From Lutibacter sp. (GTDB lineage: Bacteria > Bacteroidota > Bacteroidia > Flavobacteriales > Flavobacteriaceae), in the NCBI GenBank assembly GCA_002733665.1, contig NVWM01000004.1:1-64000 (forward strand): a stretch of 64,000 nucleotides of DNA, in the 5' to 3' direction. The notes below the pieces were generated by a model that was given only the letters and a program-made list of their open reading frames with translations, was not told the DNA's origin and did not search any database. A program made the translations under genes and the position numbers. Positions 52,663 through 60,064 of this stretch are shown piece by piece (position 1 is the stretch's first letter; each line of letters begins with the position of its first letter).

Positions 52663-54054
52663 ATGAACAAAATTTTTGCAATTGTAATTTTATTTCTTTC
52701 AATTTCATTATTCGGACAATCTGAAACGAAGGACACGCTTAAATATGAATACAAAATTGAGAAATTGAAATCGAATTTTTTTAAGAAAGAGAGAACTGTA
52801 AAAATTTATCTTCCAACGAACTATGATAAAAAGCAAAAATATCCAGTTATTTATACATTAGATGGCTACGAACTTTTTGAGATTACAACCAACTACGAAA
52901 ACTATTTAGCAAAATATAATCTAATTCCAAATTGTATTGTAGTTGGAATTTTCCACAATAATAGAGATTATGAAACAACACCTAATTATGGACGTGACGT
53001 AAGAATTCCAGTAACTGAATTTCTTGAAGGTTCTGAAAAATTGAAAAATCATTTACTTAAAGAAGTAATACCAATGATTGATAACCAATATTCAACATCT
53101 GGTTTTAATACGCTTATTGGACATTCTAATACAGCTACTTTTGTTAATGAGATGATTTCAGAAAATGAAAACCCCTTTAATGGATTTATAGCAATAACAC
53201 CAGATTTACTAAAAGAACAAACCGAATATTTAAAAAAACACTTCTCTGAAAAAGAGTTTAATAAGACATATTATTTTGTATCATCTGGCTTAAAAGATGA
53301 TAAATACAGATTAGAAACTGGAAAAATATTAGACACAATTTTCCAGAAAACAAAAAACAATAATTTCACTGGGTTGCATAAAATTTATAATGCTGGACAT
53401 CTAGATTTAGTACCAAAATCATTAAACGATGCTCTTATGTTCATATTTTCAGATTTTAGAAACTATGATGATTTCAACATTAAAGTAATTGATAACAATT
53501 TACCAATTTCTACATACATAGAAAAGAAAACCATTTTGACCAATGAAAATTATGGCATCAACTATAATTTGACAGAAGATGATTTCTATTATCTTTTAGA
53601 TTTAGTTTTGGAAAAAAAAGACAAAAATCTTCTCGAACAACTTTTTGAAGTTGGAGAAAAAAATGTATTCTTTTCAAAAAATGAAAAATATTCATCAAAA
53701 GCTCAGTTTTATGAAGAGATGGGACTATACGAAGATGCTCTAATAAACTGGAAATTACAGATAGAAAATGGATTTTACGAAAACACGTTTTATTTTGAAA
53801 GACCTTTTAAATTATTGAATGAAAACTTAAACCGACCAAAAGAAGGAATAGAGTTTCTAGAAGAGGCAATTAGGAAATATCCGAAAGGCACATTGACATT
53901 TAACTATCTAATAGCAGAAACAACATTAAAACATAGATTAAAAAAGAGAACAGGAATTAGAGCCATAAATTATTGTCTAGACCATTTTGAAGAAAACAGA
54001 AAGTTTAGTTTAAAAGATACTAAAGAGCTGAAATCAAAACTCTTAAAAAAATAA
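52663..54054 (+). CDS. Exported alpha/beta-hydrolase esterase (IroE/Fes-like) with helical C-terminus
   Basis: A 463-residue exported protein with a signal peptide (about 1-18). The esterase D-like domain (about 30-270) has KIYLPTNYDKKQKYPVIYTLDGY, the nucleophile elbow IGHSNTATF near residue 155 and a His in NAGHLDLVP near 245. The C-terminal 150 residues are helical and TPR-like (LYEDALINWKLQIENG, EFLEEAIRKYPKGTLTFNY). Relatives hydrolyse siderophore esters or act on peptide or lipid substrates. It is framed by repeat R on the left and an ACTAC motif on its stop codon, and sits alone. Confidence 0.8.
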   Translation: MNKIFAIVILFLSISLFGQSETKDTLKYEYKIEKLKSNFFKKERTVKIYLPTNYDKKQKYPVIYTLDGYELFEITTNYENYLAKYNLIPNCIVVGIFHNNRDYETTPNYGRDVRIPVTEFLEGSEKLKNHLLKEVIPMIDNQYSTSGFNTLIGHSNTATFVNEMISENENPFNGFIAITPDLLKEQTEYLKKHFSEKEFNKTYYFVSSGLKDDKYRLETGKILDTIFQKTKNNNFTGLHKIYNAGHLDLVPKSLNDALMFIFSDFRNYDDFNIKVIDNNLPISTYIEKKTILTNENYGINYNLTEDDFYYLLDLVLEKKDKNLLEQLFEVGEKNVFFSKNEKYSSKAQFYEEMGLYEDALINWKLQIENGFYENTFYFERPFKLLNENLNRPKEGIEFLEEAIRKYPKGTLTFNYLIAETTLKHRLKKRTGIRAINYCLDHFEENRKFSLKDTKELKSKLLKK

Positions 54055-54190
54055 CTACAGCTAACACGGTATAAAAATAATAAGGGCTAAGTGCCAAACC
54101 CAAAGTTGGTGCATATTAACAAAGCCCGCCAAATTTAAAATTTGACTAAGTGCTAAAACCGAAAAGTAAGTGTATTTTAACCCCTTACTA
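54054..54190. repeat. ACTAC-type framing element, copy 2
   Basis: ACTACAGCTAACACGGTATA starts on the last base of the esterase stop codon. A stem-forming region follows: GGGCT and AGCCC ends enclose TGCCAA/TTGGTGCA pairs. A direct repeat CTAAGTGC occurs twice (near 54077 and 54147). The structure recalls folded recombination sites such as attC, but the standard attC boxes are not clear. Confidence 0.5.
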
Positions 54191-54213
54191 TTCTTATACA
54201 AACCGATAAGCGT

Positions 54214-54254
54214 AACCAAAAAACGCCTTCAAAATTTGAAGGCGTTTTTTGGTT
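54214..54254. terminator. Bidirectional terminator
   Basis: A long near-perfect palindrome (ACGCCTTCAAA stem with outer AACCAAAA/TTTTGGTT pairs). It has T-runs on both strands and lies between the convergent esterase and thioredoxin genes. Confidence 0.85.
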
Positions 54255-54270
54255 TTATAAAAAGGCAAAT

Positions 54271-54630
54271 TTATTTCTCTACTCCCAACACATCTTTAAT
54301 AATGCGTTCAAATTCATCTTTTGGAAGTGCTCCTTGTGCCATTTGAGGTTCACCGTCCATAGGGCAAAATAACATTGAAGGAATACTACGAATTGCAAAT
54401 GCAGCAGACAATTCTTGTTCTACCTCAGTGTCCACTTTGTAAATGTTGATTTTACCTTCGTATTCTTGGCTCAACACTTCTAAAAGTGGTGCAATCGTCT
54501 TACATGGTCCACACCAATCTGCATAAAAATCTATAATACAAGGAACGTTTCCTTCGTATTTCCACTCTTTATTTTTTTCGAAATTAAAAACCTTTTCTAA
54601 AAAAGTTTCTTTGGTCATTTTTTCTGTCAT
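54271..54630 (-). CDS. Thioredoxin-family protein
   Basis: A 119-residue thioredoxin. The CXXC active site is in IDFYADWCGPCKTIAPL near residue 35, and cis-Pro in RSIPSMLF near 80. The frame continues to a TTG at 54654, but ATG 54630 (or 54618) fits better and falls about 30 bases after a -7 box. It probably acts as a cytoplasmic disulfide reductase. It is monocistronic. Confidence 0.88.
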   Translation of the reverse strand: MTEKMTKETFLEKVFNFEKNKEWKYEGNVPCIIDFYADWCGPCKTIAPLLEVLSQEYEGKINIYKVDTEVEQELSAAFAIRSIPSMLFCPMDGEPQMAQGALPKDEFERIIKDVLGVEK

Positions 54631-54662
54631 ATCAATAAAATTATATCTCTGCAATTGGACGA

Positions 54663-54670
54663 CAAAAGTA
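54663..54670 (-). promoter_or_regulatory. -7 box TACTTTTG of the thioredoxin gene
   Basis: On the minus strand TACTTTTG covers 54670-54663. The transcript would begin near 54656, which excludes the TTG at 54654 as a good start. Confidence 0.5.
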
Positions 54671-54690
54671 ATAAATACTTACAAGTTAAA

Positions 54691-54787
54691 ATTGTATCGA
54701 GAATATGATTTTTAACCCTCAGCCAATTCTCGATACAATTTTTTTATCTCGACTACGCTCGATATAACAAAATCACTCGAACTGACG
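54691..54787. repeat. TCTCGACTACGCTCGA repeat, copy 1
   Basis: A hairpin (ATTGTATCGAGAAT with its complement, 54691-54704 and 54726-54739) and a T-run are followed by TATCTCGACTACGCTCGATA then TAACA (54745-54769) and AAATCACTCGAACTGACG (54770-54787). The last two blocks recur at 58078-58122. It lies between the thioredoxin and beta-lactamase-like genes. Confidence 0.75.
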
Positions 54788-54790
54788 GAT

Positions 54791-56509
54791 TTATTCTACT
54801 TTTTTACCTACCATTTCTCGTCCACCTTGAAGCAAGGTTAGGCTTTCAACTTTTCCGTTGTCATCAACTTTAAAAGTAACACTTGCAGCAACAACTTTTA
54901 AATAAAATTCTGTATTTGATTTTGGAAATAATTCCGCTTGACCTTGACCAGTTGGCAGCGCAAATAATTGTTGCCCTTTGTTGGTAACTGTAATAAAAAA
55001 GCCAGGACCTAGCTCATATTTACCATTATAAGTTTCTAAAATTTCTACAGATACGCTAACCTCTTTTACAAGGTCTTTTGTTGCAACTCCTAAGCCTTCA
55101 AGTATTTTTATTCCGCCTTCACTTGCAGGATTTAGTTCCACTGATTTTTTATAGTTTGCGATTGCGTTAACTGTATCTCCTTTCATTAATAAAGCTTCTC
55201 CTAAAGAGTCATAAGGGTTTGATGCTTTAGGGTACATTTCTACATTTAATTTAAAAATAGCAAGTGCCATTTCAATGTCCTTTTTTCCTAAATACGCATA
55301 TCCTAAATTATTCAATTCTCCATCATCAAATTCATATTTATCCGCTTTTTCAACTTTAGCATTTCTATAAAACTCAATACCTTTTTCTAGTCCATTCTTT
55401 TTAATTTCTTTCTCTAAATCAGTAGCAATCGAAATTTTTGGCATTTTAAGATTATACGTATCGTCTAACAACTTTCTTCCAATATCTCCAATTCCTTCTG
55501 TAGAGTTTGTTAAAACTACTACTCCTTTTTCTGTTCCTTTAACAAATCCAGCAAAGGCTCTATAACCTCCTGTTGCTCCACCATGTTGCACAATTGCTCC
55601 ATCGTTATCATAGTGCCAAGTCAAGCCAATTTTAAATTTTTGGTCTTCGTTTTCATAAGCCGTTTTGTGACTCAATTGCATCGCTTCGTATAATGGTGAT
55701 TTTCGTATTCCCATATTTGCTTGGATATATTTAACCATATCAACTGCTGAAGAACGAATAGCCCCTGCACCTGCTAAAGCTGGTAAATCCCAGTTCTCAA
55801 CTTCTTCGCCATTATCATGACCTTTTGCTAAGTGTTTAATCATGTTTGGCGTAAAAACGATTCTTGTATTGTCCATACCCAAAGTATTTGCAATTCTTTC
55901 TACCATAATTGCTTCATAATCTTTCTTGTATTGCAATTCCAAAATATGACCCAAAATACCTAATGCTAAATTAGAGTATTCATATTTTTCTCCTATATCT
56001 CTTGTTAATTCGTAACCAGAAATAAATTCATACGCCATTTCAATTGTATAATCAGCATACGGATTATTTGGATTTGCAGGTGCAAAATTATCTGGCATAC
56101 GTGCCAAACTAGAAGAGTGTGTTGCAACGTCTTTTATTGTAATTGATTTACCGTTTCTAGTTGGTACCTTAGTATATTCCGAAAGATATTTAGAAATAGG
56201 ATCTGATAATTTCATTCTTCCTTTTAAAACCTCATCCGCAACAATAATTCCTGTAAATGTTTTAGAAATTGAGCCTATTTCAAAAATTGAATTTTTATCA
56301 ACATTTGCTCCTGTTTTTGAATCTGCTATTCCGTAACTATAATATTCCACTTTTTCTCCATCTATTAGCGCGACCACAATTCCTGTATTAATACCTTCAT
56401 CAACTCTTGCTTTAATGTGATCTCGAACTTCAGTTGAAATTTTGCTTTCTTGTGCATTTGTTATATATCCTATTGATATAAACAACAATAATGTGATGAT
56501 TTTTTTCAT
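54791..56509 (-). CDS. Serine beta-lactamase-fold protein with TPR region
   Basis: A 572-residue exported protein. The signal peptide (about 1-19) precedes a class C-like beta-lactamase domain (about 25-350): SxxK in GSISKTFTG near 85, YxN in YEYSNLALG near 180 and HGGATGGYRAF near 310. TPR-like helices (about 390-490) and a C-terminal beta-rich part (about 490-572) of the DUF3471 type follow. It is probably an esterase or peptidase rather than an antibiotic-degrading enzyme. A direct repeat lies just upstream. Confidence 0.87.
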   Translation of the reverse strand: MKKIITLLLFISIGYITNAQESKISTEVRDHIKARVDEGINTGIVVALIDGEKVEYYSYGIADSKTGANVDKNSIFEIGSISKTFTGIIVADEVLKGRMKLSDPISKYLSEYTKVPTRNGKSITIKDVATHSSSLARMPDNFAPANPNNPYADYTIEMAYEFISGYELTRDIGEKYEYSNLALGILGHILELQYKKDYEAIMVERIANTLGMDNTRIVFTPNMIKHLAKGHDNGEEVENWDLPALAGAGAIRSSAVDMVKYIQANMGIRKSPLYEAMQLSHKTAYENEDQKFKIGLTWHYDNDGAIVQHGGATGGYRAFAGFVKGTEKGVVVLTNSTEGIGDIGRKLLDDTYNLKMPKISIATDLEKEIKKNGLEKGIEFYRNAKVEKADKYEFDDGELNNLGYAYLGKKDIEMALAIFKLNVEMYPKASNPYDSLGEALLMKGDTVNAIANYKKSVELNPASEGGIKILEGLGVATKDLVKEVSVSVEILETYNGKYELGPGFFITVTNKGQQLFALPTGQGQAELFPKSNTEFYLKVVAASVTFKVDDNGKVESLTLLQGGREMVGKKVE

Positions 56510-56532
56510 GGGTAATAGTCTTTATTTAATGG

Positions 56533-56577
56533 TTTTAGTTTTCTTGAGCATTTCAAGTTAGTGATAATTTGACGACA
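56533..56577. repeat. 45-bp direct repeat, copy 1 (left of the GOLPH3 gene)
   Basis: TTTTAGTTTTCTTGAGCATT and on to TTTGACGACA. It matches 57466-57510 at 44 of 45 positions. The similarity fades over a further 20 bases (15 of 20). It lies between the beta-lactamase-like and GOLPH3 genes. Confidence 0.9.
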
Positions 56578-56768
56578 GAAAACAAAAAATGTTACAATTA
56601 CCTTATATTGGAATTTAAAAAAGGCTAGATGTATCTGCATCTATTTATTAAATGTGACTATTAAATATTCTATGATGCAACTTAAATCAACTCGCTCTAT
56701 TTCATTAAAGTGTTTAGATTTGTTGTAACATTTCTTAATTTTAGACACTAATAAAGAAAGAATCAATT

Positions 56769-57455
56769 ATGGAATTAAACTTAGTAGACAAATTTTTATT
56801 ACTTGCCTTAGACGATGACAAAGGAACTTTTACCTCTGAGCCATTTGCTATGACTTATGGATTGGCAGGAGCAATTCTTTTAGAACTTTCGTTATTAGAA
56901 TGTATCAGTATAGCGGATAAAAAAGTTGTTTTAAAAAGTCGAAAGCGAGTTGGAGATCCATTACTTGACAAGTACCTAGAACTAATTACAAACTCCAAGA
57001 AAAACCGATATGTTATGCATTGGGTTCAAACTTTTGGAAATAGAGAACGATCAATTAAGAAAGAAATCCTGGACAAACTTATTTTGAAAGGTATCTTAAC
57101 CAAACGTGAAGAAAGGTTTTTGTGGGTGTTTAATAATGATAAATTCCCAACGGCAAACTCAAAACCTGAGAATGCATTGCGTAAAAGATTATACGAGATC
57201 TTAGAATATGGTAAAACACCTAAGGTTGATGATCTCATGTTGATTAGTTTGATAGATACTTGTAAAATGAATAGATCGGTTTACGGTAAGGAACGTGCTA
57301 AGAAATGTAAAGAGACCATAAAAACACTCATAAAAGATTCGAAAAATAATAACGCTATTAGTGCTACAATTAAAGAAGTACACGACATTATTTTGATAAT
57401 GATTGCAACAGTTATTACCACTTCAATGGTGGCAACTACGATGTCTAGTAATTAA
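56769..57455 (+). CDS. GOLPH3/VPS74 (GPP34) family protein
   Basis: A 228-residue bacterial member of the GPP34 family. The N-terminal LVDKFLLLALDDDKGTF and YGLAGAILLELSLLECISI blocks are typical, as are DPLLDKYLELI and GILTKREERFLWVF. The last 20 residues are hydrophobic and may touch the membrane. In eukaryotes GOLPH3 binds PI4P and Golgi glycosyltransferases; the bacterial role is unknown. The gene sits between two 45-bp direct repeats and reads opposite to both neighbours, which suggests it came in as one unit. Confidence 0.85.
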   Translation: MELNLVDKFLLLALDDDKGTFTSEPFAMTYGLAGAILLELSLLECISIADKKVVLKSRKRVGDPLLDKYLELITNSKKNRYVMHWVQTFGNRERSIKKEILDKLILKGILTKREERFLWVFNNDKFPTANSKPENALRKRLYEILEYGKTPKVDDLMLISLIDTCKMNRSVYGKERAKKCKETIKTLIKDSKNNNAISATIKEVHDIILIMIATVITTSMVATTMSSN

Positions 57456-57465
57456 TCAAAGATGA

Positions 57466-57510
57466 TTTTAGTTTTCTTGAGCATTTCAGGTTAGTGATAA
57501 TTTGACGACA
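57466..57510. repeat. 45-bp direct repeat, copy 2 (right of the GOLPH3 gene)
   Basis: Same orientation as 56533-56577 and one mismatch (A to G at position 24). It begins 10 bases after the GPP34 stop and ends 14 bases before the end of the GreA-like gene. Confidence 0.9.
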
Positions 57511-57524
57511 ATAATCAAGAAATA

Positions 57525-57974
57525 TTACAAGATAGATTTAATGACTATTTGTTTTTCATTAAACATAATTAACTCATTTTCCTTCTTCCCAATCAACAAT
57601 TGACCAATTGGAGATTTTGTAGAGACAGCATAATAGGTAGTTTCATCAACGATTAATTTCCCTGCGCTAATTGCAATAAAGTAGTTGATTGTATTCGTTT
57701 TTATAATACTCCCAAGTTTACAAACGCTTGAACCTTCTTGTGGGTTTATTCGTTCTAACGTTATTTTCATTTCAGATACAACTTGTAATTGTTGCCCTGC
57801 TTTTTCCATTTCTAATTGCAACATTGCTCGTCCAGTTTCATGTTTGTCACCTGCAGAACTTTTAGTTTCAGATGCCAACGCTTCTTGATTTGATTTAATG
57901 GTGTTTTCAATGGTTGTCAACTTAGTATTGACAAACTCTTTACATTGTTTATATAGTATTTCTTTAATATTCAT
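57525..57974 (-). CDS. GreA/GreB-like transcription elongation factor
   Basis: A 149-residue protein. An N-terminal coiled coil (about 1-75), with the acidic tip ETKSSAGDKHETGRAMLQLE, precedes a C-terminal FKBP-like domain with YYAVSTKSPIGQLLIGKKENE. The layout is that of GreA, which rescues backtracked RNA polymerase. Its acidic tip differs from classic GreA, so it may be a relative with another role at RNA polymerase. It is close to a direct repeat on its 3' side. Confidence 0.75.
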   Translation of the reverse strand: MNIKEILYKQCKEFVNTKLTTIENTIKSNQEALASETKSSAGDKHETGRAMLQLEMEKAGQQLQVVSEMKITLERINPQEGSSVCKLGSIIKTNTINYFIAISAGKLIVDETTYYAVSTKSPIGQLLIGKKENELIMFNEKQIVIKSIL

Positions 57975-57990
57975 TTTTTCTATTTATTAA

Positions 57991-58122
57991 CGTCACATCG
58001 AGTGAATTTATCTAGTGAAATGAAATAAATTTGTATCGAGATGCTTTCTTATGATTGTTCTCGATACAATTTTATTTTATCTCGACTACGCTCGATATGA
58101 CATAAAATCACTCGAACTGACG
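57991..58122. repeat. TCTCGACTACGCTCGA repeat, copy 2
   Basis: A fuller version of 54691-54787. It starts CGTCACATCGAGTGA (57991-58005), whose reverse complement is nearly the right end TCACTCGAACTGACG. Inside are a TTGTATCGAG/CTCGATACAA hairpin and TATCTCGACTACGCTCGATA then TGACA. It lies between the GreA-like gene and the FAD oxidoreductase. Confidence 0.8.
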
Positions 58123-58132
58123 ATAAAGGACA

Positions 58133-59236
58133 TTATACCAATTCCGCCAATTCTTTTCCTATCACACTTCCTATTGCAATTCCCATTCCGCCAAGTCGAA
58201 CTCCACAATAGACATTCTCAGAAACTTGTTTTACAATTACTTTTTTCTGATTTCCAACGCCCATAATTCCACTCCATCGATGTTCAATTTCCACTTCTTG
58301 ATTTGGTAAAATTGTTGTTTTCAAAATTTCTTCCAATTTGTTCTGAACCAATGCTGTTAATCCAAATTCACTTGTTTCTTCTGTTTCAAAATCTAGATTT
58401 CTTCCTCCGCCTAATAAAATTCTGTCATCTATATTTCTAAAATAATAATATCCTTTTTCTAAATGAAAAGTTCCTTTTATTTCATGATTTTTTATCGGTT
58501 TTGTAATCAGAACTTGCGCTCTTGCAGGTTGTAAATTTTCTTTTAAAAACTGGTTAGCAAATCCGTTAGTTGCGATTAGAACTTTATTTGATTTAAAAGA
58601 AAAACCATTACTCAACTCTATTTCTCCATTGTCTAAAATATTCGTTACCTCAACATTATTTAAAATTTTGATTCCTTCAAGATGTGCACATTTCAGTAGA
58701 GTTGCCATCATTTTTCCAGTGTCAATTTGCCCTTCATATTGATTGAAAAAATAATTCTCTTTAACATTAGCAAAATCGTATTTATTGTCACAAATAGAAA
58801 AAACATTTTGCTTAAATATTGGTTTTAAAAGTTGGTTAATTACTTCCTTCTTTTCTAAACATTCTTCAAACAAGTTATCATTATTAGAAAACAATTCATA
58901 ACCTCCATATTGTCTAAACCCAATATTTGCATCTCCTAAATTTTCTCGCAATAATTGTAATCCTTCCCAACGTTTTTGAACCAAACTGTATACTTCTTCT
59001 TCAGAATGAGTTTCTAAATCATCTACAATCTCAGAAAGACTTCCAAAACAAGCAAAACCTGCATTCTTAGTACTTGCTCCATTAGGCAATAACCCTTTTT
59101 CCAGCACTAAAATCTTGCTCTTTGGATATTTTTCTTGTAAATAAATAGCGGTATTTAATCCAACTATTCCACTTCCAATAATTGTAAAATCAACATTAGA
59201 AAACCATTCTTTTAATTCCCAATAACTAAAACTCAT
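58133..59236 (-). CDS. FAD-dependent oxidoreductase (DAO family)
   Basis: A 367-residue flavoenzyme. The FAD-binding site IIGSGIVGLNTAIYLQ is near residue 20, with KNAGFACFG near 58 and the C-terminal GVRLGGMGIAIGSVIGKELAEL closing the FAD site. It belongs to the glycine/D-amino-acid oxidase superfamily; no specific substrate is apparent. The N-terminus has 15-18 residues before the Rossmann motif. It stands alone between repeats. Confidence 0.85.
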   Translation of the reverse strand: MSFSYWELKEWFSNVDFTIIGSGIVGLNTAIYLQEKYPKSKILVLEKGLLPNGASTKNAGFACFGSLSEIVDDLETHSEEEVYSLVQKRWEGLQLLRENLGDANIGFRQYGGYELFSNNDNLFEECLEKKEVINQLLKPIFKQNVFSICDNKYDFANVKENYFFNQYEGQIDTGKMMATLLKCAHLEGIKILNNVEVTNILDNGEIELSNGFSFKSNKVLIATNGFANQFLKENLQPARAQVLITKPIKNHEIKGTFHLEKGYYYFRNIDDRILLGGGRNLDFETEETSEFGLTALVQNKLEEILKTTILPNQEVEIEHRWSGIMGVGNQKKVIVKQVSENVYCGVRLGGMGIAIGSVIGKELAELV

Positions 59237-59358
59237 CTTTTCTTATTTCCTTTTATTTAATATTTTTTAAAAGTCTTTTGCATACGTGTAAATATAGTCA
59301 TTATTTAAAATAATTCTTAATTAAAAAAAAGTTTCAAAAGTTGACATATATCATATTC

Positions 59359-59384
59359 TTGATTTATTAAAGGGCATACTTTTG
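59359..59384 (+). promoter_or_regulatory. Promoter of the OmpW-like gene
   Basis: TTG at 59359-59361, 15 bases, TACTTTTG at 59377-59384, then 32 bases to the ATG. The -33 spacing is shorter than usual, so only the -7 box is well supported. Confidence 0.5.
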
Positions 59385-59416
59385 CTTAAAATTAGTTAAA
59401 AATAAAACTATATATT

Positions 59417-60064
59417 ATGAGAAAAATTATATTAAGTGTATTGACACTATTGTTAACAGTTAGTTTAGTAAATGCACAAGAAGAAACAGAAAAAGACTAT
59501 AGCAAATGGCAAGTTAGATTGCGTGGTCTTGCAGTAATTCCTAACGAAAGTGCAACTATTGACGTAATTGGTGGAGATGTAGATATTGAAACTGCATTTA
59601 TACCTGAATTAGACTTTACATATTTCTTTACTAAAAATTGGGCGGCAGAATTAATTTTAGGAACATCAAATCATGATGTGAAGGCTATTTCTACTGCTGC
59701 AGGAGATATTGAATTAGGTGATGTTTGGTTATTGCCTCCTACATTAACATTACAGTACCATTTTTTGCATGGAGAAAGTGTACGTCCATATTTAGGAGCG
59801 GGATTGAACTATACCATTTTTTATGACGAAAATAATGGTCCTGTTGCCGATAAAGTGTCTTATGAAAATAGTTTAGGGTATGCTTTTCAGTTTGGGATCG
59901 ATTTTGATTTAGATAATAAATGGTTTATCAACTTAGATTATAAATACATTTTACTTGATACAGATGTAACAGTTGATGCTACTACTGCTTTAGGTGCAAC
60001 AGTAGGAGCTGATGTAGAAATTAATCCAGCAATTATTGGTGTTGGATTTGGTAGAAGATTTTAA
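59417..60064 (+). CDS. OmpW-family outer membrane protein
   Basis: A 215-residue outer membrane protein. The signal peptide (about 1-20, VSLVNAQ) is followed by alternating beta strands. It has the OmpW/AlkL signature around FTYFFTKNWAAELILG, WLLPPTLTLQYHF and VRPYLGAGLNYTIFY. The C-terminal Phe ends the last strand, as BamA expects. OmpW forms a small eight-stranded pore for hydrophobic compounds. A strong terminator follows. Confidence 0.88.
   Translation: MRKIILSVLTLLLTVSLVNAQEETEKDYSKWQVRLRGLAVIPNESATIDVIGGDVDIETAFIPELDFTYFFTKNWAAELILGTSNHDVKAISTAAGDIELGDVWLLPPTLTLQYHFLHGESVRPYLGAGLNYTIFYDENNGPVADKVSYENSLGYAFQFGIDFDLDNKWFINLDYKYILLDTDVTVDATTALGATVGADVEINPAIIGVGFGRRF

Follow-up and report, generated by a model that had tools for sequence, protein, structure and literature searches.

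A GOLPH3-family gene between two copies of its neighbour's upstream region in Lutibacter, a probable scar of gene acquisition

In a Lutibacter genome (assembly GCA_002733665.1), a lone GPP34 (GOLPH3-family) gene lies between two direct copies of the region upstream of the adjacent serine hydrolase gene, while three congeners carry the same two neighbours with one copy of that region and no GPP34. We consider it probable (roughly 70%) that GPP34 was acquired together with its promoter and inserted between a GreA-like gene and the hydrolase gene, via either a single crossover or homology-assisted illegitimate integration. The window analysed here is a stretch of 64,000 nucleotides (contig NVWM01000004.1, positions 1 to 64,000), and unprefixed coordinates refer to it (Table 1).

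A self-BLAST of the window recovers the direct repeat pair with an E-value of 3.5e-19; the copies are 69 nt long, 90% identical and spaced 933 apart. The original prediction, made from the sequence alone, described 45-bp repeats agreeing at 44 of 45 positions and at 15 of the next 20. The 45-mers at 56533-56577 and 57466-57510 indeed differ by a single mismatch, followed by five mismatches in the next 20 positions, and the similarity extends to 69 nt. Its description of the repeats as enclosing GPP34 alone, antiparallel to both neighbours, also holds: GPP34 is the sole ORF of at least 100 aa between the copies and reads on the plus strand, with the hydrolase and GreA-like genes both on the minus strand. 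The 864 bp between the repeats consist of the GPP34 gene, 171 bp of upstream DNA and 6 bp behind it, and copy B overlaps the last 6 nt, stop codon included, of the GreA-like gene, which is without any Pfam match. The repeat is not a known RNA by Rfam, which has no match at the gathering threshold within 54000-60000. A separate pair of 65-nt repeats (54727-54787 and 58058-58122, 92% identity) brackets the whole block of hydrolase, GPP34 and GreA-like genes, its right-hand copy sitting inside a palindromic stretch.

Table 1. Features of the GPP34 locus in the window, and GPP34 fusions elsewhere in the phylum.
Feature	Position	Strand	Basis or remark
Serine hydrolase gene (beta-lactamase family, TPR, DUF3471)	54791..56509	-	ORF; Pfam PF00144, E 2.4e-54
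Repeat copy A, hydrolase upstream region	56529..56597	-	Single counterpart at the same place in G006, G008 and G010
Promoter-like motif TGTAACA-N15-CGTC in copy A	56571-56596	-	
GPP34 upstream DNA, 171 bp, 24% G+C	56598..56768	+	Own motif beginning TGTAACATTTC, 45 nt before the ATG
GPP34 (GOLPH3-family) gene, 228 aa	56769..57455	+	PF05719, E 1.9e-40; predicted fold GOLPH3/Vps74
Repeat copy B, second copy of hydrolase upstream region	57462..57530	-	Motif altered to TGTAATA
GreA-like gene, weak similarity	57525..57974	-	ORF; NCBIfam GreA, E 0.0097, far below cut-off
GPP34 fusions (three with P450, one with molybdopterin oxidoreductase)	L081, L082, L084, L095		Other phylum members

The genus sample comprised 14 genomes including this one, one per species, several of them 69-85% complete. 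The GreA-like gene is present in 12 of the 14 and was not found in G001 or G012. Beside it, G006, G008 and G010 carry an ortholog of the hydrolase (75-83% identity; one TAG is flagged inside the G008 match), and in each of these three the two neighbours are adjacent, without GPP34 and with exactly one intergenic copy of the repeat. Except for the missing GPP34, G010 has the wider arrangement of the window (DAO, GreA-like, repeat, hydrolase, thioredoxin). Eight further congeners have the GreA-like gene, but within 1,500 bases of it, or less where a contig ended sooner (as in G004), neither the hydrolase nor the repeat turned up; a thioredoxin gene closely follows the GreA-like gene in G013, G003, G005 and G002, and lies about 1 kb away in G009. 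Since the hydrolase and the repeat occur together, and neither was seen beside the GreA-like gene elsewhere in the DNA read, the repeat is the hydrolase's upstream region, and the pair therefore duplicated host DNA rather than the ends of an element. The one-copy sites are what the original prediction had expected of relatives if an insertion had been accompanied by a duplication; it had expected the opposite, GPP34-less relatives with both copies or a widespread intergenic repeat, if the idea was wrong, and neither was seen.

The repeat is indeed not widespread. A search of this genome (37 contigs, 2.7 Mb, 92.5% complete) with an 85-base query around copy A, following the original suggestion to look for the 45-bp sequence elsewhere, located it in two places only and returned no third copy at E <= 0.001, although copies as diverged as the G006 site (83% identity) may escape it, since the same type of search did not list that site. 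The two copies in this genome at that threshold rule out a dispersed intergenic element. Across 99 genomes, a search at E <= 1 with about nine candidates at most scored per genome gave some match in 97, and among the matches listed all but those of G008 and G010 were weak and mostly short.

GPP34 itself is scattered. It occurs in 1 of the 14 genus genomes and in 3 of 99 relatives, and was not found in the 13 other genus genomes, several of which are incomplete; among genus genomes at least 90% complete, this one included, it occurs in 1 of 6. Above the Pfam cut-off it is found in 6 of 397 genomes of the family (Flavobacteriaceae) and 21 of 395 of the phylum. By itself, an empty site is compatible with gain as well as loss, and such sites are known to arise when flanking repeats recombine, as the excerpts of one study of genomic microdiversity describe (PMC2884548). 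The insertion could then be ancestral, with GPP34 lost from the congeners by recombination between the repeats and one copy left in each. However, such a history requires GPP34 to have been lost precisely in three congeners and to be missing from the remaining ten as well; given also the rarity and scatter of the gene across the family, we regard this history as highly improbable and infer a gain. Loss of GPP34 by recombination between the present copies is possible, but was not observed.

The closest homologues suggest what may have been gained. Five of them (62-68% identity), in Muriicola, Winogradskyella pelagia, Hanstruepera marina, Polaribacter vadi and genome G208, adjoin unrelated genes. 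In all six close homologues, this one included, TGTAACA stands 45-52 nt ahead of the ATG. As background, of 650 ORFs of 120 aa or more in the sampled part of this genome, 8 have TGTAACA 25-75 nt before the start, and GPP34 is one of the eight. A more distant homologue (L049) has TGTAAC at -79, and two others (L022 and L029) have no TGTAACA within 90 nt of the start. No direct repeats at E <= 0.01 flank any of the eight other GPP34 loci tested, which comprised these five close homologues and three distant ones (loci L030 and L031 and those of the phylum sample were left out). Taken together, the unrelated sites, the lack of flanking repeats and the common upstream motif suggest that the travelling unit was the promoter plus the gene, and that the repeat was made here and belongs to this site. 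GPP34 relatives were absent from 72,556 plasmid and 50,697 phage records, and in a scan of viral contigs the six stretches that matched the pattern encoded none. At the G208 locus, the flanking kinase occurs in 7 of 40 other genomes of its genus, none of which has the other neighbour in the DNA read.

The original prediction went further and proposed the scar of a mobile single-gene element. The repeats would then be attachment sites with a core of about 45 bp, recombined by a site-specific recombinase acting in trans. The core does agree at 44 of 45 positions with lower similarity outside it, and copy B lies at the 3' end of a gene, where attachment sites are often found. Yet the similarity continues past the core to 69 nt, and the repeat is retained as the hydrolase's upstream region in species without GPP34. 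A further copy of the supposed site was not found in this genome at E <= 0.001, the eight other GPP34 loci tested all lack direct repeats at their flanks, and the unit, whose only ORF of at least 100 aa is GPP34, contains no recombinase ORF. With no relative in the plasmid, phage or viral scans either, this part of the prediction is unsupported, and we think such an element very unlikely here.

The minus strand of the repeat carries the motif TGTAACA-N15-CGTC in copy A, G008 and G010; the G006 form is degenerate, and in copy B the first box reads TGTAATA. This genome contains seven matches to the motif against two for a backward control, and one of the seven precedes a Band-7 gene. In Flavobacterium psychrophilum, a CGT box at -10 is attributed to ECF sigma factors, whose targets include Band-7 genes (excerpts of PMC9723704). 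We read the motif as a putative ECF-type promoter, for which the excess over the backward control is suggestive. Copy A would still act as the hydrolase promoter, and copy B would be a by-product with a changed -35-like element.

GPP34 matches PF05719 with 139.6 bits (cut-off 29.1), its residues 5-203 covering positions 1-200 of the 201 in the profile. All eight Foldseek matches of its AlphaFold2 model (mean pLDDT 79.8) at E <= 0.001 are GOLPH3 or Vps74 entries, the best being 9qpq_B with a TM-score of 0.76 by query length, and the predicted structure thus conforms to the GOLPH3/Vps74 fold. The PI4P-binding residues of the human protein are taken to be W81, R90, R171 and R174; in an alignment read by eye, neither W81 nor R90 appears conserved here, and the positions of R171 and R174 hold the basic residues R and K. 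The same residue names had no match in the excerpts of PMC7425898. In the phylum sample, 16 of 29 GPP34 matches lie in open frames of 667-740 codons; all three long-frame proteins scanned fuse GPP34 to cytochrome P450, and one further protein fuses it to a molybdopterin oxidoreductase. In two genomes (L077, 1066-2109, and L078, 1064-2103), a small gene comes directly after GPP34, and in L077, the one scanned, it is DUF1232.

The one useful source that we found on bacterial GPP34/GOLPH3, of which more may be in print, concerns a Streptomyces GOLPH3-like gene that affects the formation of wall-deficient cells (excerpts of PMC12402492). Its product, SCO4440, also belongs to PF05719 and is linked genetically to muropeptide composition as well as to wall-deficient cells (PMC12402492). 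According to the excerpts, six Streptomyces species retain SCO4440 next to a D-Ala-D-Ala carboxypeptidase gene, whereas GPP34 here is patchy and in varying company (PMC12402492). A membrane-associated role of GPP34 is plausible. The idea of a defence gene was set aside, the PADLOC match being AbiTi alone with an E-value of 0.037. The name Gpp34 is also borne by insecticidal proteins.

Copies A and B differ at 7 of 69 positions, and each differs from the three orthologous sites at 12-18 of 69-71. They are thus mutually nearest over the whole repeat, as a duplication within this lineage predicts. Against a simple duplication, their differences are unevenly spread (1 in 45, then 5 in 20), with P = 0.037 in a scan test that covered any 45-position stretch because the 45-mer had been picked for its identity. 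Over the 20 positions beyond the 45-mer, A differs less from G006 (3/20) than from B (5/20). The unevenness might reflect gene conversion, constraint or copies of mixed origin.

The hydrolase may have a history of its own. Its gene is patchy in the genus, and its protein is 83% identical to that of G008 and 79% to that of G010, whereas the GreA-like protein (60% and 68%, respectively) and an MFS protein (65% and 87%) show the opposite kinship, so an exchange may have affected the hydrolase segment as well. In that case GPP34 could have come in together with the segment or later, and the hydrolase site may be a spot of repeated exchange.

Under our preferred reading, a horizontally acquired segment of GPP34 plus promoter would have entered the intergenic region between the GreA-like and serine hydrolase genes. 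The incoming DNA would have borne a short patch of homology to this region, and a single crossover or homology-assisted illegitimate recombination would have left about 69 bp of the hydrolase's upstream region on both sides of the insert. A foreign gene bracketed by repeats of host sequence is a known product of a single crossover. In E. coli given DNA with one homologous patch and a marker, 56 of 60 rare Lac-negative recombinants had a duplication by PCR, measuring 109-950 bp in the 14 sequenced and attributed to a recircularised molecule that integrated by a single crossover, and the other four apparently arose by homology-facilitated illegitimate recombination (excerpts of PMC3240628). Illegitimate recombination assisted by homology is also discussed in parts of two other sources (PMC2884548, PMC5361080). 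The E. coli duplication is the closest observed process that we found, and may serve as an analogue: there too, directly repeated host sequence ends up on both sides of a foreign gene (PMC3240628). However, the 69 bp here fall below the range of the precedent, which counts against a single crossover, and the event is reconstructed by comparison rather than observed. The collections searched yielded no donor in which GPP34 adjoins the repeat.

We also surveyed 804 kb of the 2.7-Mb genome (38 stretches) for direct repeats of at least 40 nt and at least 80% identity lying 200-2,500 bp apart. This gave twelve pairs, the GPP34 pair included. The pairs in stretches L108 and L122 and one in L144 lie within genes or between apparent paralogues, the pair in L143 looks like a shared promoter-like stretch, and there are further pairs in L134 (two) and L144 (one). 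A GIY-YIG gene at L142 (15558-16060, contig C30) is enclosed by 40-nt direct repeats belonging to a short palindromic element, of which a third copy occurs nearby in inverted orientation. One pair in L134 (8871-8986 and 11227-11341, contig C36) is a 116-nt intergenic direct repeat of 85% identity, its copies 2.2 kb apart and enclosing several ORFs.

Two loci resemble the GPP34 locus more closely. At L114 (16497-18479, contig C35), a Y1-transposase gene that has inverted repeats at its ends lies behind an MFS gene, and beyond it the final 93 nt of the MFS gene occur a second time (82% identity). The MFS gene occurs in 6 of the 13 congeners, all six without the transposase gene and second copy within 1,500 bases. 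This case is weaker than a full empty site, because the far-side gene did not turn up in those six congeners, which leaves that junction unaligned. At L140 (11121-13524, contig C35), 169 nt of the 3' end of secA are repeated at 89% identity past a Band-7 gene and a small ORF, with a further repetition of 56 nt, so that this locus supplies two of the twelve survey pairs. The secA copy B is nearest to copy A (19/170) and then to G010 (21/166). In 11 congeners (G004 and G005 were dropped at contig ends), no repeat of the secA end appeared within at most 1,500 bases downstream, in a test that also missed the second copy in this genome. The secA locus is a possible third case. These loci might be read as one recurrent, transposase-independent process, by which the genus repeatedly adds single promoter-bearing genes beside conserved genes and duplicates about 70-170 bp of the neighbour's end or upstream region; we hold this generalisation to be doubtful, if conceivable. 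If true, it would mean that gene neighbourhoods are built one gene at a time, as with GPP34, the Y1-transposase gene and possibly the genes behind secA.

These two loci also bear on whether homology was needed at all. A foreign linear fragment could instead have been captured at a staggered break or through template switching, with fill-in duplicating about 69 bp of target DNA. Such a capture would fit the empty site, the direct orientation of the repeats, the lone gene and the closeness of A and B. To our knowledge, however, duplications of about 69 bp are not typical of bacterial end joining, being too long. The copies in the MFS case differ by 18%, hinting at homologous donor DNA in such events, and secA copy A gives the same hint, being nearer to G013 (17/166) than to its own copy B. 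We therefore judge break capture unlikely, and favour the homology-based routes over both it and an attachment-site element.

Set against known systems, the locus is a clear but fairly ordinary gene-acquisition scar, a known kind of genome variation that is here well resolved. Microdiversity loci are similar in that a short segment is present in some genomes and its site empty in others, with direct repeats at the base in 10-18% of segments (excerpts of PMC2884548). There, 66-94% of the repeats are shorter than 30 bp, as against 69 nt here, where the repeat is also a neighbour's upstream region and surrounds one complete gene with its own upstream motif (PMC2884548). The T6SS immunity-gene arrays of Vibrio cholerae are alike in gaining new genes beside a conserved anchor while displaced older sequence is kept, and homology-facilitated illegitimate recombination is the route proposed for them in the sections of PMC5361080 that we draw on. 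Those arrays are built of effector-immunity modules, unlike the single gene found here (PMC5361080).

The locus thus offers an example, complete with its empty site, of how a foreign gene would enter a chromosome without a transposase while leaving its neighbour's upstream region intact. GPP34, best known from the Golgi, occurs in scattered flavobacteria as what appears to be a promoter-plus-gene unit at varying places, and these varying sites provide small, testable contexts for its unsettled role in bacteria.
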